Shown here: positions 6,191 through 11,919 of the stretch, piece by piece
Position numbering within the stretch: the stretch's first letter is position 1
Layout of the letters: each line of letters starts with the position of its first letter
DNA from: Alistipes sp.
Lineage (GTDB): Bacteria; Bacteroidota; Bacteroidia; Bacteroidales; Rikenellaceae
DNA length: 40,188 nucleotides
Assembly (NCBI GenBank): GCA_017403125.1
Contig: JAFQOR010000011.1
Coordinates: 1-40,188, forward strand
Direction of reading: 5' to 3'
Position numbers and translations under genes: made by a program
The notes under the pieces: generated by a model
What the model was told of the DNA's origin: nothing
The model's database searches: none
The model's input: the letters and a program-made list of their open reading frames with translations, nothing else

Positions 6191-7093
6191 ATGCGGCTGC
6201 GTTACAATGAAGATTTGATTGTTGCCAACGTGTTGTTCGGTTGCAACTTCCCTGTGTTGGTGTCACTTACGCAGGGTGTTATGGACTATCGTATGCTCTT
6301 CGTAATGGAGGTTATGGTAGTTGCCTTGTGCTTTATTCCGCACCTAATCTTCGATGCATCGGCGTGGCACCTTGCATGGCACGATGTGCGCAACATTATT
6401 GTTGTAACGCTGTTTGTAGTCTATGGATGGCTCTATATGTTGCTGTGGGGTGCATCTTCGACCAACGCCTTCGATGCCTCGACGTTGGCGACACTCGGCC
6501 CGGTTATTACGCTTGTAGCTTCGCGAATAGCTACGCACCGCCGTATGCGTCTGCCACGTATCGTGGGCGTCGTTGTTGCGCTGTTCGGAGCGGGACTTCT
6601 ACTCTTCGACCAAGGAGAGAGGATGTGGGATGTAGGCAGTGAGGTCTTTGGCAATGCACTGGTGTTGGTCGCTGTGGTCGCCATAGCCATAAATACGGTT
6701 ATCATCAAGCCGCAGCTCGAACGCCTTGGTACGCGCACAGTGTTGGCGTGGTGCTCGGTTTTCGCTTTGCCCATTACGTTGCCCCTCTTTTGGCACTACT
6801 TTCGTGTCGAGGAGCTGGCGATGTTCTCGCCGATTGATGGTGGCGAGCTTGCCTATGCGTTGCTGCTTGGCACTGCATTGCCGTTGTTATTGCTCTATCG
6901 TGGCGCCGAGAAGCTCTCGGCAGTGCATACGGCGCTCTATCGCTATATTCAACCCACGATTGCATGGAGCGTAGCCATCGTGCGTCATAGGGTACTGCCC
7001 GACAAGGAGTGTATCATAGCCATGGCGCTTATCGCCCTCGGCGTGTTGTTCGTTGTTGCCGAGTATAACATAAATATAAGGAGCCGGACATGA
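6191..7093 (+). CDS. EamA-type (DMT superfamily) transporter
   Basis: The 300-residue protein is almost wholly membrane-embedded, with about ten hydrophobic helices arranged as two five-helix repeats, the pattern of the drug/metabolite transporter superfamily. Characteristic pieces are VANVLFGCNFPVLVSL in the first helix, ATLGPVITLVASRIA followed by MRLPRIVGVVVALFGAGLLL at the end of the first repeat, and the late segment AEKLSAVHTALYRYIQPTIAW, which matches the second EamA repeat. The substrate is unknown. The frame is open to TTG 6173 and GTG 6179, but the ATG at 6191 fits the start of the first helix. The stop codon lies in the loop of a terminator hairpin. Confidence 0.82.
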   Translation: MRLRYNEDLIVANVLFGCNFPVLVSLTQGVMDYRMLFVMEVMVVALCFIPHLIFDASAWHLAWHDVRNIIVVTLFVVYGWLYMLLWGASSTNAFDASTLATLGPVITLVASRIATHRRMRLPRIVGVVVALFGAGLLLFDQGERMWDVGSEVFGNALVLVAVVAIAINTVIIKPQLERLGTRTVLAWCSVFALPITLPLFWHYFRVEELAMFSPIDGGELAYALLLGTALPLLLLYRGAEKLSAVHTALYRYIQPTIAWSVAIVRHRVLPDKECIIAMALIALGVLFVVAEYNINIRSRT

Positions 7094-7106
7094 TCCCGGC
7101 TCTTTT
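7078..7106 (+). terminator. Terminator overlapping the end of the EamA gene
   Basis: GAGCCGG (7081-7087) pairs with CCGGCTC (7096-7102), extended by AAG against TTT, and four T follow (7103-7106). The TGA stop at 7091-7093 is inside the 8-nt loop. Confidence 0.75.
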
Positions 7107-7224
7107 GAAAATCAATAGAATGATAATCTCGCATAATTACACCCAATTCAGTGTCTAATTTATAAAAAAATAATATTTTTATAATATTGGTAATACTCGG
7201 AGTGCTACAATCAAAATATTTTTG

Positions 7225-7233
7225 TATATTTGC
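7225..7233 (+). promoter_or_regulatory. -7 element upstream of the structured RNA and accessory operon
   Basis: TATATTTGC matches TAnnTTTG. A transcript starting near 7240 would contain the rod-shaped RNA at 7302-7452 and could run into the operon at 7647. I see no convincing -33 TTTG at 19-21 bp, so support comes from the -7 box alone. Confidence 0.4.
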
Positions 7234-7239
7234 ATATCC

Positions 7240-7480
7240 TTGGTATTACAAGGAGATTACATATTTTGATGAAAGTGATTAACTTTTATCCTTGACAGAG
7301 AATCTGACAGTTCAAAAAAGCACAAGGATTAAGTAGCACTCGCATCATCTGTTCGATTTTTGGTGGTATTTCTTTTCACATCAATATCGTTCAGGTGTGG
7401 GGTATTACCATGTTTATTTGTGCTTGGGTTTTGTCAGAACCATCTGTCAGATAAACGAAAGTGACTCCACACTTTCTGTT
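7240..7480 (+). ncRNA. Candidate rod-shaped structured RNA (6S-like, or leader of the accessory operon)
   Basis: Four collinear nested stems are visible by eye. 7302-7310 (ATCTGACAG) pairs with 7444-7452. 7318-7325 (AAGCACAA) pairs with 7418-7425. 7346-7351 (CATCTG) pairs with 7392-7397, with one G-U. 7354-7357 (CGAT) pairs with 7386-7389, separated from the previous stem by a symmetric TT/TT loop. Unpaired stretches of about 20 nt face each other at 7326-7345 and 7398-7417, giving a long rod with a central bubble, the general form of 6S RNA. A local hairpin GAAAGTG/CACTTTC (7457-7463 with 7470-7476) follows; an identical GAAAGTG at 7271-7277 could compete for CACTTTC. ATCCTTG (7288-7294) could also pair with CAAGGAT (7323-7329) and break the second stem. 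The ends are estimates, and a 6S or Bacteroidales-1 identity is inferred from shape only. Confidence 0.45.
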
Positions 7481-7560
7481 ACTGAATCAATTGGATGAGT
7501 GTATTATTAGTTGTACATGGGTGCTATGTGCGTGTTTATTTAATGTAGTTGAATTGGATA

Positions 7561-7580
7561 TTAGGCTTTGTTTTAGGCTT
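7561..7580 (+). repeat. Short direct repeat upstream of the accessory operon
   Basis: TTAGGCTT occurs at 7561-7568 and again at 7573-7580, a 12-bp period close to one helical turn, about 67 bp before the first operon gene. It could be an operator half-site pair. In the 553-base gap 7094-7646 the other contents are the terminator at 7078-7106 and the structured RNA. Confidence 0.3.
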
Positions 7581-7646
7581 AGCAATTCACGTAATTCTGA
7601 AATAAGAATAATTGACAAACTAATATTAACCTAAAAAACAACAACA

Positions 7647-8708
7647 ATGAGAAACTACTCTTTTCTTAAAATTTTTTCGGCAGTAGCATTTCTAATTTTT
7701 GCCGGTTGGAGTTGTTGGGCGACAGCTCAATCGTTATTTTTAACCCTAGAAGATGGAACTATTCCAATATGGCTATTACTTTCGGGCGTTATTGGGTTAT
7801 TTGTCTTGACATCTTATTGTACGAAGCTGATAGTGGATAGTATTATCCTTAAATATTGTGAGCATCGTACTATGAAATTCGTTCTGGGTATGATAGGAAT
7901 GGCATTTACATGGCTGTTATTCAGTATGCCAACCAATACACATTACTTTATGTATAATAAGATTGCAAAGGATGCAGCAAAGAGTGAGCTATCATATATA
8001 CGTGATAATATCAATATTGAAGCAGACATTAGATGTATTGAGGTTGAGTGTATCGATGAATACAATAAAATTCGTCAAGATTATAATAGTGCCATGGTGA
8101 CACTAAAGACTGAGGTCGAAAAGGCTGGTGACCCAGGGTTTGGTGATAATGCAGAGCGTAAGTTAGGTGATGCTATCTCAATATTGTACCAAGTTGTGAG
8201 TGATGAAAAGAAGAGTGAGTTGATAGAAAATATAATTATTCTCTCGCAGGATTATAATTTGACAGTAAAGAGAGAAAGAAATAATTTCTTTGATAGATGC
8301 GATAATATCCTCAAACCTTATATAGAAGAATTAGAAGAGGTGTGTATGCGCAGATATTATGTAGCCAAGCAAGACAATGAGCAAAGGGCTGTAAATGCAA
8401 ATGAGATAATTGATGATTGTAAACAAGCACTTGCCGTTATAGATACAACGGAAAATATGGATGACATATTAAAGGAGGCTCGTCGTATAATTACAAATGC
8501 GTATAGTTTATCGCCAGAACTTGAAGCGAATTATATAGGTTATCCATTGAAACGAACAACAAATGTTGTTGAGGTCTGGAGTGACTTCTTTGGCGGAGTA
8601 TTCAAGGATAAAAATTATGGTTTGGGGTATTGGATTCTACTCTCCATAATCATTGATATTGCTGCCTTTGCGTTCTTTACATTAGCGTTGAGAGAGGAGG
8701 ATGAGTAA
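7647..8708 (+). CDS. Four-TM membrane protein with a large soluble loop, accessory system gene A
   Basis: The 353-residue protein has membrane helices at about 8-31, 39-68, 77-97 and 328-348. Between the third and fourth lies a soluble, largely helical domain of about 230 residues (98-327) rich in Glu, Asp, Lys and Ile, with coiled-coil character around 125-160 and 195-285 and five cysteines. Positive charges before helix 1 and between helices 2 and 3 (LKYCEHR) put the N-terminus inside and the big loop in the periplasm, and the C-terminus REEDE inside. I do not recognise the family. It is first in a four-gene AT-rich operon and ends 43 bp before the GTPase-like gene. A sensor or scaffold role is inferred from topology and neighbours only. 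The ATG at 7647 follows an A-rich leader. Confidence 0.8.
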   Translation: MRNYSFLKIFSAVAFLIFAGWSCWATAQSLFLTLEDGTIPIWLLLSGVIGLFVLTSYCTKLIVDSIILKYCEHRTMKFVLGMIGMAFTWLLFSMPTNTHYFMYNKIAKDAAKSELSYIRDNINIEADIRCIEVECIDEYNKIRQDYNSAMVTLKTEVEKAGDPGFGDNAERKLGDAISILYQVVSDEKKSELIENIIILSQDYNLTVKRERNNFFDRCDNILKPYIEELEEVCMRRYYVAKQDNEQRAVNANEIIDDCKQALAVIDTTENMDDILKEARRIITNAYSLSPELEANYIGYPLKRTTNVVEVWSDFFGGVFKDKNYGLGYWILLSIIIDIAAFAFFTLALREEDE

Positions 8709-8751
8709 CACATCGAGTTATGAAATATACTAACTTTAAAAAAATATAGTT

Positions 8752-9678
8752 ATGGCAATTTTTGATGTTGACAACGAATTGAACGAGCAGGATGTTCCTA
8801 TATCAAATTTATCAAATGATAATATGGTAGATTCCGAGGGAAGTATGGATATTCCGAAAGCGGAGGATGATAATGTATATGGATTGTCTGAAGCTGAAAA
8901 ATCGGATCCTACCTTGATACAAACTGTAATATCTGACAAGAAGACACCCATTGTCGTTTTGTTTGGACCTCCCGCGTGTGGTAAAACAATGTTGATGATT
9001 CGTATCGCGAGATATCTTAAACAACTTGGTTATGAGGTTAAACCTAAGGGCGATTTTAGACCACAGTATGACTCAAATTATGAGTCAATATGTAATAATT
9101 TTAACACACTTCTGAATTCAAATTTTGCCGCAGAATCAACTAATAGAATTAGTTTTATGCTTCTTGAAGTTCTTGATGAACATAAAAACCGTGTGTGCCA
9201 GATATTGGAGGCTCCAGGTGAGCATTATCACAATCCCAATAATCTCGGAAAGGGTTTTTTGCCCTATATTGAAAATATTATCAATAGCCCAAACAGGAAG
9301 ATTTGGGCTATCATGGCAGAATTAAATTGGAATAAAAATGTAACGGATTATATAGATAGAATTGCAGAGCTACGCAAAAGTATCGAGAAGAAGGATTCTA
9401 TACTTTTCATCTGCAATAAAGTAGACCTTACTCCATTTGTGCGTGGTAAGTGCGATGTGAACATCAAGCAGTTGAAACAAGATTTCTGCGATGAATATAT
9501 TGGGCTTTTTAATATGTTTACATACAGAACTCTTTTTGGGAAAAAACATGCATATAAGTTTGTCCCATTTCAAACGGGGTCATATACACGAAGTGGTAGT
9601 GGTAGAGTAGTATTTTCACAAGGAGATGATTATTACCCAAAAATGTTGTGGAATACGATAAGAAGTTTTGGAATATAA
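8752..9678 (+). CDS. GTPase-like P-loop protein (TRAFAC-type), accessory system gene B
   Basis: The 308-residue soluble protein opens with about 60 acidic, probably disordered residues. The G1/Walker A motif is GPPACGKT (72-79), preceded by the strand PIVVLF. A G3-like motif EAPGE lies at 153-157, where the usual first Asp of DxxG is Glu. G4 is NKVD (222-225) after the strand SILFI. These make it a GTP-binding P-loop protein; the xAPGE form resembles GTPases of predicted bacterial conflict systems (DO-GTPase or GTPase-associated systems as I recall the Aravind group's descriptions). No membrane helix or effector domain is present, so it probably works as a switch for the membrane proteins around it. 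It starts 43 bp after gene A and ends 16 bp before gene C. Confidence 0.85.
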   Translation: MAIFDVDNELNEQDVPISNLSNDNMVDSEGSMDIPKAEDDNVYGLSEAEKSDPTLIQTVISDKKTPIVVLFGPPACGKTMLMIRIARYLKQLGYEVKPKGDFRPQYDSNYESICNNFNTLLNSNFAAESTNRISFMLLEVLDEHKNRVCQILEAPGEHYHNPNNLGKGFLPYIENIINSPNRKIWAIMAELNWNKNVTDYIDRIAELRKSIEKKDSILFICNKVDLTPFVRGKCDVNIKQLKQDFCDEYIGLFNMFTYRTLFGKKHAYKFVPFQTGSYTRSGSGRVVFSQGDDYYPKMLWNTIRSFGI

Positions 9679-9694
9679 TTAATAATACGTAAAT

Positions 9695-10804
9695 ATGTCG
9701 AATAAAATAGAATGTCATGTCTTTTTACATGGTGTCCCAGATGGTCATGACTGGTGTGGTACAGATAATAAGAATGATTTATACGTAGATAACTTATATG
9801 GAGGCATATCAAAAGATATGTCTGCATATATGATTGTTGAGATGTGTAATAATTATTCTTATTACACACTGGTTAGATCAAAGGGTTATACAGACTTTAC
9901 GGGTCGTTCAGGCTCATTCTTCGGCATAACTATGCGTGTAAAACAGCATTGTTATCTTGTCCAAAGTGATATTTATAATGTATTTTCTGATATATACAAT
10001 ACACTAATACTGAATAATATAATATCCCCTAATAAAAGTGGTGGACAGTATTTGGTTAGAAGTTTTCAAAGCAACCCCGATATTATAAAGAAGGTTTGTA
10101 AGAAGATAGATGATGCCTTAAACATAAACTACTTTATCCCAGTACAGGTGGGTAAAAAGTTACACGAACAACCTAATATTGTAAGATGTAGTATTGAAGA
10201 TGCGGATAAGGTATCATTATGCCAGCAAATACAGCGTGGTGCAAAAATACTAATCAGCGAGGAATTGCCATCGTTAGATCAGCGAATTCAAGAATCCGTA
10301 GGCTATATAAAGACTGTTAACGAGTCTCTAAAAATGCAGCAGGATGAGAATAAGTCTCTTCAAGAGTTGTACAATGAACAGAAAGAGTCCATAACAAAGC
10401 TGCAAAAATCCTACGATGACAATGTTAAAATTCTTGAAGACAAGATAAAATCTTTAGATGCAGAGTTAGCAAAGAAACAAAGCGAATTGGATTTGTATGC
10501 TGATAACGTAAAGTTATTAAATGAGTTTAAGCATATCATATCTGCATACAATAGAGCGAAAACTAATGATGTTGCAGTAGGAGAAACTAAAAATATTTCC
10601 AATCCTCCTGGCAAAGATATGTGGAGCAGACTAAATATTAAGTTGGTACTTGTTATAGGGTTTATTATCATTATCCTTGTCAGCTACCTAACTACACAAT
10701 GTTCAAATCAAGAGCCACAGAGTAATGTAAGTGGCAAAAGCGCCATGACATCGAAAGAAGGTTATGGTATAAGGGATATAAATATGTCCAAAGGTAATGA
10801 TTAA
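9695..10804 (+). CDS. Coiled-coil, C-terminally membrane-anchored protein, accessory system gene C
   Basis: The 369-residue protein has three parts. Residues 1-150 are a globular domain with HVFLHGVPDG near the start, then YYTLVRS, TGRSGSFFGITMRV (69-82) and a helix ending in NNII (107-110). Residues about 191-285 form a long coiled coil. Residues 315-333 (KLVLVIGFIIIILVSYL) form one membrane helix, followed by a short polar tail. There is no signal peptide, so the N-domain and coil should be cytoplasmic. The N-domain appears to be shared with gene D and recalls the GAP1-N type domain of GTPase-associated systems, from memory. It follows the GTPase gene by 16 bp and is probably translated with it. 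The exact function is unknown. Confidence 0.82.
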   Translation: MSNKIECHVFLHGVPDGHDWCGTDNKNDLYVDNLYGGISKDMSAYMIVEMCNNYSYYTLVRSKGYTDFTGRSGSFFGITMRVKQHCYLVQSDIYNVFSDIYNTLILNNIISPNKSGGQYLVRSFQSNPDIIKKVCKKIDDALNINYFIPVQVGKKLHEQPNIVRCSIEDADKVSLCQQIQRGAKILISEELPSLDQRIQESVGYIKTVNESLKMQQDENKSLQELYNEQKESITKLQKSYDDNVKILEDKIKSLDAELAKKQSELDLYADNVKLLNEFKHIISAYNRAKTNDVAVGETKNISNPPGKDMWSRLNIKLVLVIGFIIIILVSYLTTQCSNQEPQSNVSGKSAMTSKEGYGIRDINMSKGND

Positions 10805-10814
10805 CTCTATAGCG

Positions 10815-10852
10815 GAGCCTGTCAAGCAGAACATGTTAGATAGGCTCTCTTT
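10815..10852 (+). terminator. Weak hairpin (attenuator?) between genes C and D
   Basis: GAGCCTGTC (10815-10823) can pair with GATAGGCTC (10839-10847), 9 bp with one G-U pair, followed by TCTTTG. The T run is poor, so partial termination or RNA processing is as likely as a full stop. Confidence 0.4.
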
Positions 10853-10899
10853 GTATATTGCAGTTCTTTTGTTGAGATATTAATAGAGATGATAATAGT

Positions 10900-11751
10900 A
10901 TGAATTGTACTATTTATATATGGGGGAATCCTAATGACAAGTATTCGCAGGTCCCTAATGATTATGTGCGTGGCATATTTGAAAAACTCGCAGCTAAACG
11001 TTGTGATGACTGTCCGAATATGATGATGATACATAGAGACAATAACTCGATGTATTATATAGGTATGTTACAGATTGATACTCAGCATTATTTAGGTATT
11101 ACTATTTTAATGAGTAATGTAATTATATATGATGTTGACACGATGTTTAAGTTAATGAAATGGACATTTGAGGAGTTGGCGAAACAAAATATAATACTAT
11201 GCTATGACCGAAAAGGGCAGATTATAATTTTTCGCTCACATATAGATGATTTGACTAGACATAACGAAGAGTTGGATACTGCCATAGAAATAGTTGAGCG
11301 AATGTTCTCTGATATTGATGAATTATGTAAACCGTTACCTCCGTTAGACTATTCTCGGTCCAATACAGAATTTACAACAATATTTGCTACGACCACACCT
11401 GCAAATGAAGAAGTAATTAAGTCATATACTACTATTTATGTTATAAGTGATGTTAAGCAGGGAAAGGTGCAGCGAGCATTTTCAATAGCTTCGACAATTT
11501 ACATTGATTTCAAAGATTGTGTTAATGTTTCGGTTCGTTGGGTAAGTAGCTCGAAAGATACATTCGCTAGCTTATCAGTATTTCGGAAGTTGATGGCCAT
11601 GCTGCTTTTAATTACTTTAATCACACCATTTGCAATACTTTGGGATTTACTTGTTATACTATTGTTTATGGTCGTTGTATGCATCGTTTGGGGTTTAGTA
11701 GCTGCAGTCGGTGCAGGTGTGATATGGGCGTGTTTTGAGGTATTAAAGTAA
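10900..11751 (+). CDS. Membrane protein with N-domain like gene C, accessory system gene D
   Basis: The 283-residue protein begins CTIYIWGNPND, like the CHVFLHGVPDG of gene C, and continues with YYIGML, HYLGITILM (63-71) and QNIIL (96-100). These line up with YYTLVR, FFGITMRV and NNII of gene C in the same order and spacing. Residues 105-225 are a mixed region without a recognised motif. The C-terminus has two long hydrophobic stretches (about 229-249 and 250-279), probably a membrane hairpin, and no coiled coil. It is separated from gene C by 95 bp that include a hairpin, so its dose may differ. Codon use is AT-rich like A to C. The function is unknown; a second membrane partner of the GTPase is my inference. 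Confidence 0.78.
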   Translation: MNCTIYIWGNPNDKYSQVPNDYVRGIFEKLAAKRCDDCPNMMMIHRDNNSMYYIGMLQIDTQHYLGITILMSNVIIYDVDTMFKLMKWTFEELAKQNIILCYDRKGQIIIFRSHIDDLTRHNEELDTAIEIVERMFSDIDELCKPLPPLDYSRSNTEFTTIFATTTPANEEVIKSYTTIYVISDVKQGKVQRAFSIASTIYIDFKDCVNVSVRWVSSSKDTFASLSVFRKLMAMLLLITLITPFAILWDLLVILLFMVVVCIVWGLVAAVGAGVIWACFEVLK

Positions 11752-11884: not shown

Positions 11885-11919
11885 CTTGCTCATTATATCT
11901 ATGTTATATATTTAGTCCT

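Follow-up and report, generated by a model that had tools for sequence, protein, structure and literature searches.

Organization of the locus

The window analysed here (the whole 40,188-nucleotide stretch of contig JAFQOR010000011.1 from Alistipes sp., GenBank assembly GCA_017403125.1) contains an operon of four genes, A to D, which encode a predicted inner-membrane protein (A), a GTPase (B), and two membrane-anchored proteins with related N-terminal domains (C and D), and which on balance probably form a trans-envelope signalling switch. An earlier note on this DNA had read the four genes as a membrane-coupled GTPase system, possibly for defence or signalling, and the coordinates that it gave, the common strand, and the gaps (43 bp between A and B, 16 bp between B and C, and 95 bp between C and D) were reproduced exactly by the positions of the open reading frames (ORFs; Table 1). 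The base composition is also unlike that of both flanks, as the note had claimed: the guanine-plus-cytosine (GC) content per 1 kb is 0.34-0.36 within the block versus 0.49-0.55 in the neighbouring kilobases, and 0.348 for the operon versus 0.515 for the remainder of the window. None of A to D passes the curated thresholds of Pfam or NCBIfam, and none matched a known housekeeping family at that level, again in agreement with the note. The P-loop of B and the C coiled coil give only weak or partial matches in Pfam, NCBIfam, and PADLOC; no full-length PADLOC match was obtained for any of the four proteins, the best partial ones being to mad8 for B (4.4e-5) and LmuB for C (5.6e-5).

Table 1. Features of the operon in the window (positions in the window, residues of the encoded protein in brackets; aa, amino acids; TM, transmembrane helix)
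Feature	Position	Strand	Basis or remark
Gene A, predicted inner-membrane protein	7647-8708	+	353 aa ORF; hydrophobic segments at residues ~5-23, 37-55, 76-94, 330-348
A, predicted periplasmic domain, candidate sensor part (~95-329)	7929-8633	+	between TM3 and TM4
Gene B, soluble TRAFAC-type GTPase	8752-9678	+	308 aa ORF; G motifs, fold model, DO-GTPase2 profile
B, G1/Walker A GPPACGKT (72-79)	8965-8988	+	G....GK[ST] in 63/63
B, Walker B/G3 EAPGE (153-157)	9208-9222	+	ExPGE in 63/63
B, G4 NKVD (222-225)	9415-9426	+	NKxD in 63/63
Gene C, N-terminal longin-like domain, coiled coil, one TM, short tail	9695-10804	+	369 aa ORF
C, longin-like domain (~1-187)	9695-10255	+	
C, predicted TM (315-333)	10637-10693	+	
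Hairpin in the C-D gap, site of gene P in relatives	10814-10848	+	106-nt stretch, z -2.51; 3/200 shuffles fold as well
Gene D, second longin-family N-domain and hydrophobic C-terminal anchor	10900-11751	+	283 aa ORF
D, domain homologous to the C longin-like domain (~1-150)	10900-11349	+	profile-profile E 2.5e-16
D, strongest predicted TM (250-268)	11647-11703	+	

Recurrence in other genomes

Within the order, a clear relative of B was found in 4 of 393 genomes, the genome analysed here included; the other 34 of the 38 matching genomes matched over a short stretch only, mostly around the P-loop and mostly in longer proteins. A scan of 84,980 species genomes with an alignment from the four B genomes yielded 171 loci, and among the best 80, which were kept, 67 (L038-L104) are clear relatives and 13 (L105-L117) match over a short stretch only. 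The kept loci are labelled Bacteroidales save a few. Loci L083, L095, L096, and L104, labelled Opitutales, Bacilli, Clostridia, and Roseburia, lie on short contigs, carry near-typical Bacteroidales versions, and may be mis-binned metagenome records.

Gene order was read with hidden Markov models (HMMs) for A, B, C, D, and a fifth gene, P, over 68 loci, the window included. The order A-B-C-P-D occurs at 35 of these loci and A-B-C-D at 13; overall, A, B, C, and D stand in the same order at 55, and most of the remaining loci are broken by contig ends. Pairwise distances at the 50 four-gene loci are correlated for every gene pair (B-C 0.76, A-B 0.69, B-D 0.67, A-C 0.62, C-D 0.58, A-D 0.49; maximum 0.305 in 500 permutations each), which shows common inheritance, expected of linked genes anyway, and not contact. 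Flanking sequence of 3 kb or more is available at 64 loci, and at 58 of them the operon is lower in GC content than its surroundings; the median difference is 6.8 points. The four genes thus co-occur in conserved order at dozens of other loci, whereas the earlier note had named a lack of such co-occurrence as an argument against its reading. The block is accessory, AT-rich, and patchy in its distribution. Among 12 other genomes of the family compared as possible empty sites, the gene downstream of the block had no match at E up to 1e-60, and the upstream gene was matched in six at E up to 1e-20 (26-48% identical). The PubMed Central (PMC) matches listed, a scope that leaves subscription-only literature outside, include no account of this operon or of Bacteroidales longin proteins.

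The GTPase and its membrane-anchored partners

Protein B is assigned to the TRAFAC GTPases by its G1, G3, and G4 motifs, counted over the 63 B proteins longer than 280 aa (7 shorter family matches were left out), and by a modelled fold that is predicted to be TRAFAC-type (predicted local distance difference test score 87.1; structure comparisons are a VIA-align second pass over the Foldseek top 1000). The complete motifs and the modelled fold uphold the earlier description of the system as a membrane-coupled GTPase switch, and B, described there as a soluble GTPase-like protein, has no hydrophobic segment or predicted TM helix. The Pfam family SRPRB matches B weakly (E 0.012 for window B; 3 of 59 B members, best 0.00044). 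Most loci carry a single GTPase. Second B paralogues are present at L041:10454-11263, L047:1075-1881, and L101:8806-9627, and two of these second paralogues have a degenerate Walker B (DMPGD, EVPWL) and could be pseudo-GTPase partners. Carriage of B by phages or plasmids was considered and set aside, as searches of phage, plasmid, and IMG/VR sequences by tblastn or pattern scan, with window B as the sole query, gave no match.

Gene C adjoins B at most loci, and the N-terminal domain of its product is classed as longin-like by the fold of the structure model. The corresponding domain of D is probably longin-like as well through its homology to that of C: the C-family HMM finds window D at E 3e-6, and an alignment of the two family profiles spans 214 columns (probability 98.7, E 2.5e-16), which confirms the similar domain that the earlier note had seen in the two proteins. 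Neither C nor D matches the Pfam longin families at E up to 10, and the proteins are therefore called longin-like and not longin members. A single TM helix is predicted in 63 of 66 C and 48 of 54 D family proteins; in window D the C-terminus is hydrophobic over residues ~218-283, scored as a single segment. The note had also offered membrane disruption through the anchors of C or D as a hypothesis, a role that was rejected as unsupported, given the mostly single anchors and a shared domain whose modelled fold is of longin type and not a pore. At L050:10620-16841, four D-family ORFs lie close together, an arrangement that suggests an expansion of the second longin-like protein.

Protein A has four predicted TM helices in 50 of 62 family members (alignment A7, 53 rows), and the orientation that would place its large domain in the periplasm follows from a positive-inside reading of the sequence.

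The fifth gene, P, usually sits between C and D in relatives, where the window has only the 95-bp gap. The P product is of the gag-asp_proteas/Asp_protease_2 type (all three proteins scanned pass the Pfam threshold), and is accordingly classed by sequence as a retropepsin-like (clan AA) protease. A DTG-type motif is present in 47 of 48 P proteins, a count that is partly by construction as the seeds were chosen by motif. As in lipoproteins, a Cys close to the N-terminus forms an invariant column in the 46 aligned rows, but no more than 29 of 48 P proteins contain a simple lipobox pattern. Forty-six of the 56 loci with both C and D have P, including three listed without it in which P is hidden beneath a longer ORF. 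The 10 others are the window, L043, L045, L055, L059, L077, L079, L081, L087, and L099; L088, which shows no P in the gene-order listing, was excluded from the 56 by a coordinate filter. On the B tree, the P-less loci (11 loci) are scattered, requiring 9 changes, at least 4 of them on branches with good support (101 of 500 shuffles need no more changes than this), so a single origin of the P-less loci was rejected and P has been lost or gained repeatedly. Retropepsin domains also occur within long proteins encoded behind D at L039:12235-14277 (680 aa) and L084:13216-15300 (694 aa).

Comparison with DO-GTPase and other systems

In the available part of Kaur et al. 2020 (PMC7159879), DO-GTPase systems are defined by a TRAFAC GTPase whose Walker B carries a conserved Glu, accompanied by a GAP1 partner and by GASH or FNIII proteins; TM-rich GAP1-N2 systems are described as well. 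The earlier note had pointed to profile comparison with such GTPase-associated families, and a measurable link to DO-GTPases was found for B. The B family aligns with a DO-GTPase2-type profile over 197 columns, from G1 to NKxD (probability 95, E 2.8e-8; 12 reference proteins, of which 4 are over the Pfam cut-off and 8 are plasmid proteins taken by operon position). In the reverse direction, the best 18 of 126 matches to an HMM of this set are all B proteins (window B at E 0.0015), and the Walker B Glu is common to both, GE being invariant in the 12 reference rows as ExPGE is in B. At the level of Pfam, window B has no match to DO-GTPase at E up to 10, and a single one of 59 B proteins matches DO-GTPase2 with E no higher than 0.01 (0.0053). 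The hhalign background ranking is biased by proteins, which we take to be Lon-type, that entered the set by way of their Walker A: nine of these and one AAA protein outscore DO-GTPases over 29-92 columns, and two non-GTPase P-loop proteins (L077 and L088) also align over 103-114 columns. The link to DO-GTPases therefore rests on the profile match, the reverse search, and the shared motifs, not on rank.

Against the GAP1-N1 profile, C reaches E 0.03 over 16 columns only and D reaches 0.69, and a GAP1-N1 HMM gives E 9.2 for window C and 8 for the best C/D-family row, leaving membership in GAP1-N1 unsupported; GAP1-N2, compared as one sequence (L127), ranks 63 of 627. Protein A did not match two GASH proteins, which rank 542 and 581 of 627, and GASH is unsupported as a relative of A. 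The N-terminal 60 residues of window B contain no Cys and hence no zinc ribbon, a further difference from DO-GTPase systems. A sister-like operon in another Bacteroidota genome (L126; G550:C4:31000-42500) encodes a subtilase-like TM protein, a TM protein, a GTPase over the DO-GTPase2 cut-off, a C-like TM protein, and two further proteins. Its C-like protein takes the first of 627 places in the comparison with the C profile (E 0.0051 over 99 columns, which pair the two N-termini), narrowly ahead of the next row at 0.0086, its GTPase aligns with B over 119 columns (E 2.4e-5), and its TM protein, at rank 53 of 627, is unsupported as a relative of A; a search of 395 genomes, with E up to 1e-8, found no further copy of this GTPase. 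The operon resembles DO-GTPase/GAP1 (GASH) systems in its TRAFAC GTPase with the Walker B Glu, its adjoining partner, an occasional second GTPase, and TM components, but differs from them in lacking a significant GAP1-N1 or GASH match, in its pair of longin-like membrane paralogues where those systems have a single GAP1, in the retropepsin P of most relatives, and in the absence of a recurrent effector. Since B has the GE motif in common with these systems and resembles them at profile level, but C and D show no significant similarity to GAP1-N1, the operon is placed beside these systems and not inside them.

Likenesses extend to several other switches. SR-beta and the longin domain of SR-alpha, of the signal recognition particle receptor, act in protein targeting, and this pair also joins a small GTPase (SRPRB, which matches B weakly) to a longin partner; however, B has no predicted TM helix, there are two longin-like proteins, and the rest of the operon is different. 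Rag/Gtr GTPases with longin regulators (Lst4-Lst7, FLCN-FNIP, GATOR1) share the predicted folds of the B GTPase domain and the C N-terminal domain, as well as the use of two different longin-type partners. The operon, in contrast, is bacterial and TM-anchored, has parts beyond the membrane, and carries a single GTPase at most loci; no sequence-level relation to those proteins was found. MglA/MglB of Myxococcus is likewise a bacterial small GTPase with a partner of a fold class related to longin, whereas MglB is of roadblock type and the partners in the operon are longin-like, membrane-anchored, and accompanied in relatives by a protease gene. TagF, a secretion-control protein of type VI secretion, is a structural neighbour in comparisons with the modelled structure. 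Roadblock/longin GTPase platforms are thought to be archaeal in origin, with roadblock proteins sporadic in bacteria, according to the available part of PMC10933270.

Proposed mechanism and alternative explanations

The signalling switch that we favour builds on the conserved, co-inherited operon, the complete G motifs of B, the anchors, the protease family of P in relatives, and the TRAFAC-type and longin-like folds described above. Protein A would lie in the inner membrane and receive signals through its large periplasmic domain, and in relatives the variable C and D tails might be further points of entry. The cytoplasmic longin-like domains of the anchored C and D would together make a binding platform for B, in the simplest case as a C-D heterodimer, and would control the nucleotide state of B or its placement at the membrane. 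In most relatives, a periplasmic P would initiate or reset signalling by cutting part of A, C, or D, and the window version would operate without it. The membrane topology, the dimer, the contact with B, the direction of the signal, the substrate of P, and the output are what we infer in this scheme. A broader proposal, which we hold at slightly less than an even chance, is that Bacteroidales carry a complete GTPase-longin switch of eukaryote/Asgard type, with a Rag/Arf/SR-beta-like B, a C-D longin heterodimer, a periplasmic sensor A, and mostly a retropepsin P, the DO-GTPase systems being distant cousins whose GAP1-N domains are perhaps longin folds. A conserved bacterial operon with a GTPase of this kind and two distinct membrane-anchored longin-like proteins would provide a small genetic system for studying the origins of such switches. 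It would also suggest what structure the uncharacterised GAP1 partners in DO-GTPase conflict systems might have, and how proteolysis in the periplasm could possibly set a GTPase in the cytoplasm.

The alternative readings overlap with the signalling switch, since either defence or upkeep of the envelope could be the purpose of a switch, and their probabilities need not sum to one. It is rather unlikely, and compatible with the switch mechanism because it concerns purpose and kinship, that the operon is a divergent DO-GTPase/GAP1-like conflict (defence) system with B as a cousin, C and D as GAP1-like coordinators, A standing in for GASH or a TM component, and sensors or effectors encoded by the variable genes that follow D. 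The profile link of B in both directions, the C-like neighbour of the L126 GTPase, the GTPase pairs at three loci, the AT-rich and patchy block, and the conserved Glu and TM-rich systems in the available part of Kaur et al. (PMC7159879) all argue for such kinship, whereas the insignificant GAP1-N1 matches of C and D, the lone DO-GTPase2 match among 59 B proteins, and the GASH ranks argue against it. The genes behind D bear on both sides. Fifty-two were taken (at most two per locus, within 1.5 kb, plus two added retropepsin-domain proteins, which account for the retropepsin domains in 2 of 52). Single genes strongly match the PADLOC models HEC-01A (6.4e-131), PDC-S72 (1.2e-120), PDC-S02 (5.1e-112), HEC-01B, and PD_DExK, and two match a PN-superfamily 'Effector' model. 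However, no effector family recurs: 115 PADLOC families were matched with at most two members each (among the best 25 of 115), and in Pfam (best 25 of 57 families) BACON is the most frequent at 5 of 52, followed by TPR (3) and PNP_UDP_1 (2), most others among the matches listed being single (e.g., one Endonuclease_NS, one AAA-ATPase-like). A phmmer search for the PNP domain of canonical GAP1 gave no match, and some of the 52 genes are likely ordinary neighbours.

The same neighbours, with their BACON and TPR proteins, one leucine-rich repeat protein, and many secreted or envelope-type products with signal-peptide or lipoprotein-like starts by eye, would suit an envelope-maintenance or secretion-linked GTPase device (e.g., control of surface or lipoprotein export) that is neither signalling nor defence. 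DUF805 in 3 of 56 D proteins, TagF as a structural neighbour, and the longin pairing of SR-beta and SR-alpha point the same way. Yet the neighbours vary between loci and a clear B relative occurs in so few genomes of the order, unlike core envelope machinery, and we regard this explanation as improbable. The idea that unrelated orphan genes happen to lie side by side in a low-GC region, to which the low GC and the missing family assignments would lend themselves, is refuted by the shared order and correlated distances and has a negligible probability.

Edges of the block

Scans of the window for tRNA genes and for Rfam families at gathering scores returned none. Upstream of A, positions 7094-7646 are an AT-rich stretch of ~550 bp with no obvious gene, several short inverted repeats, and terminator-like sites. 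A 21-nt inverted repeat (7064-7084 and 11888-11908, 90% complementary) lies near-exactly at both edges of the low-GC block, and may be a product of chance in AT-rich DNA or the trace of an insertion.
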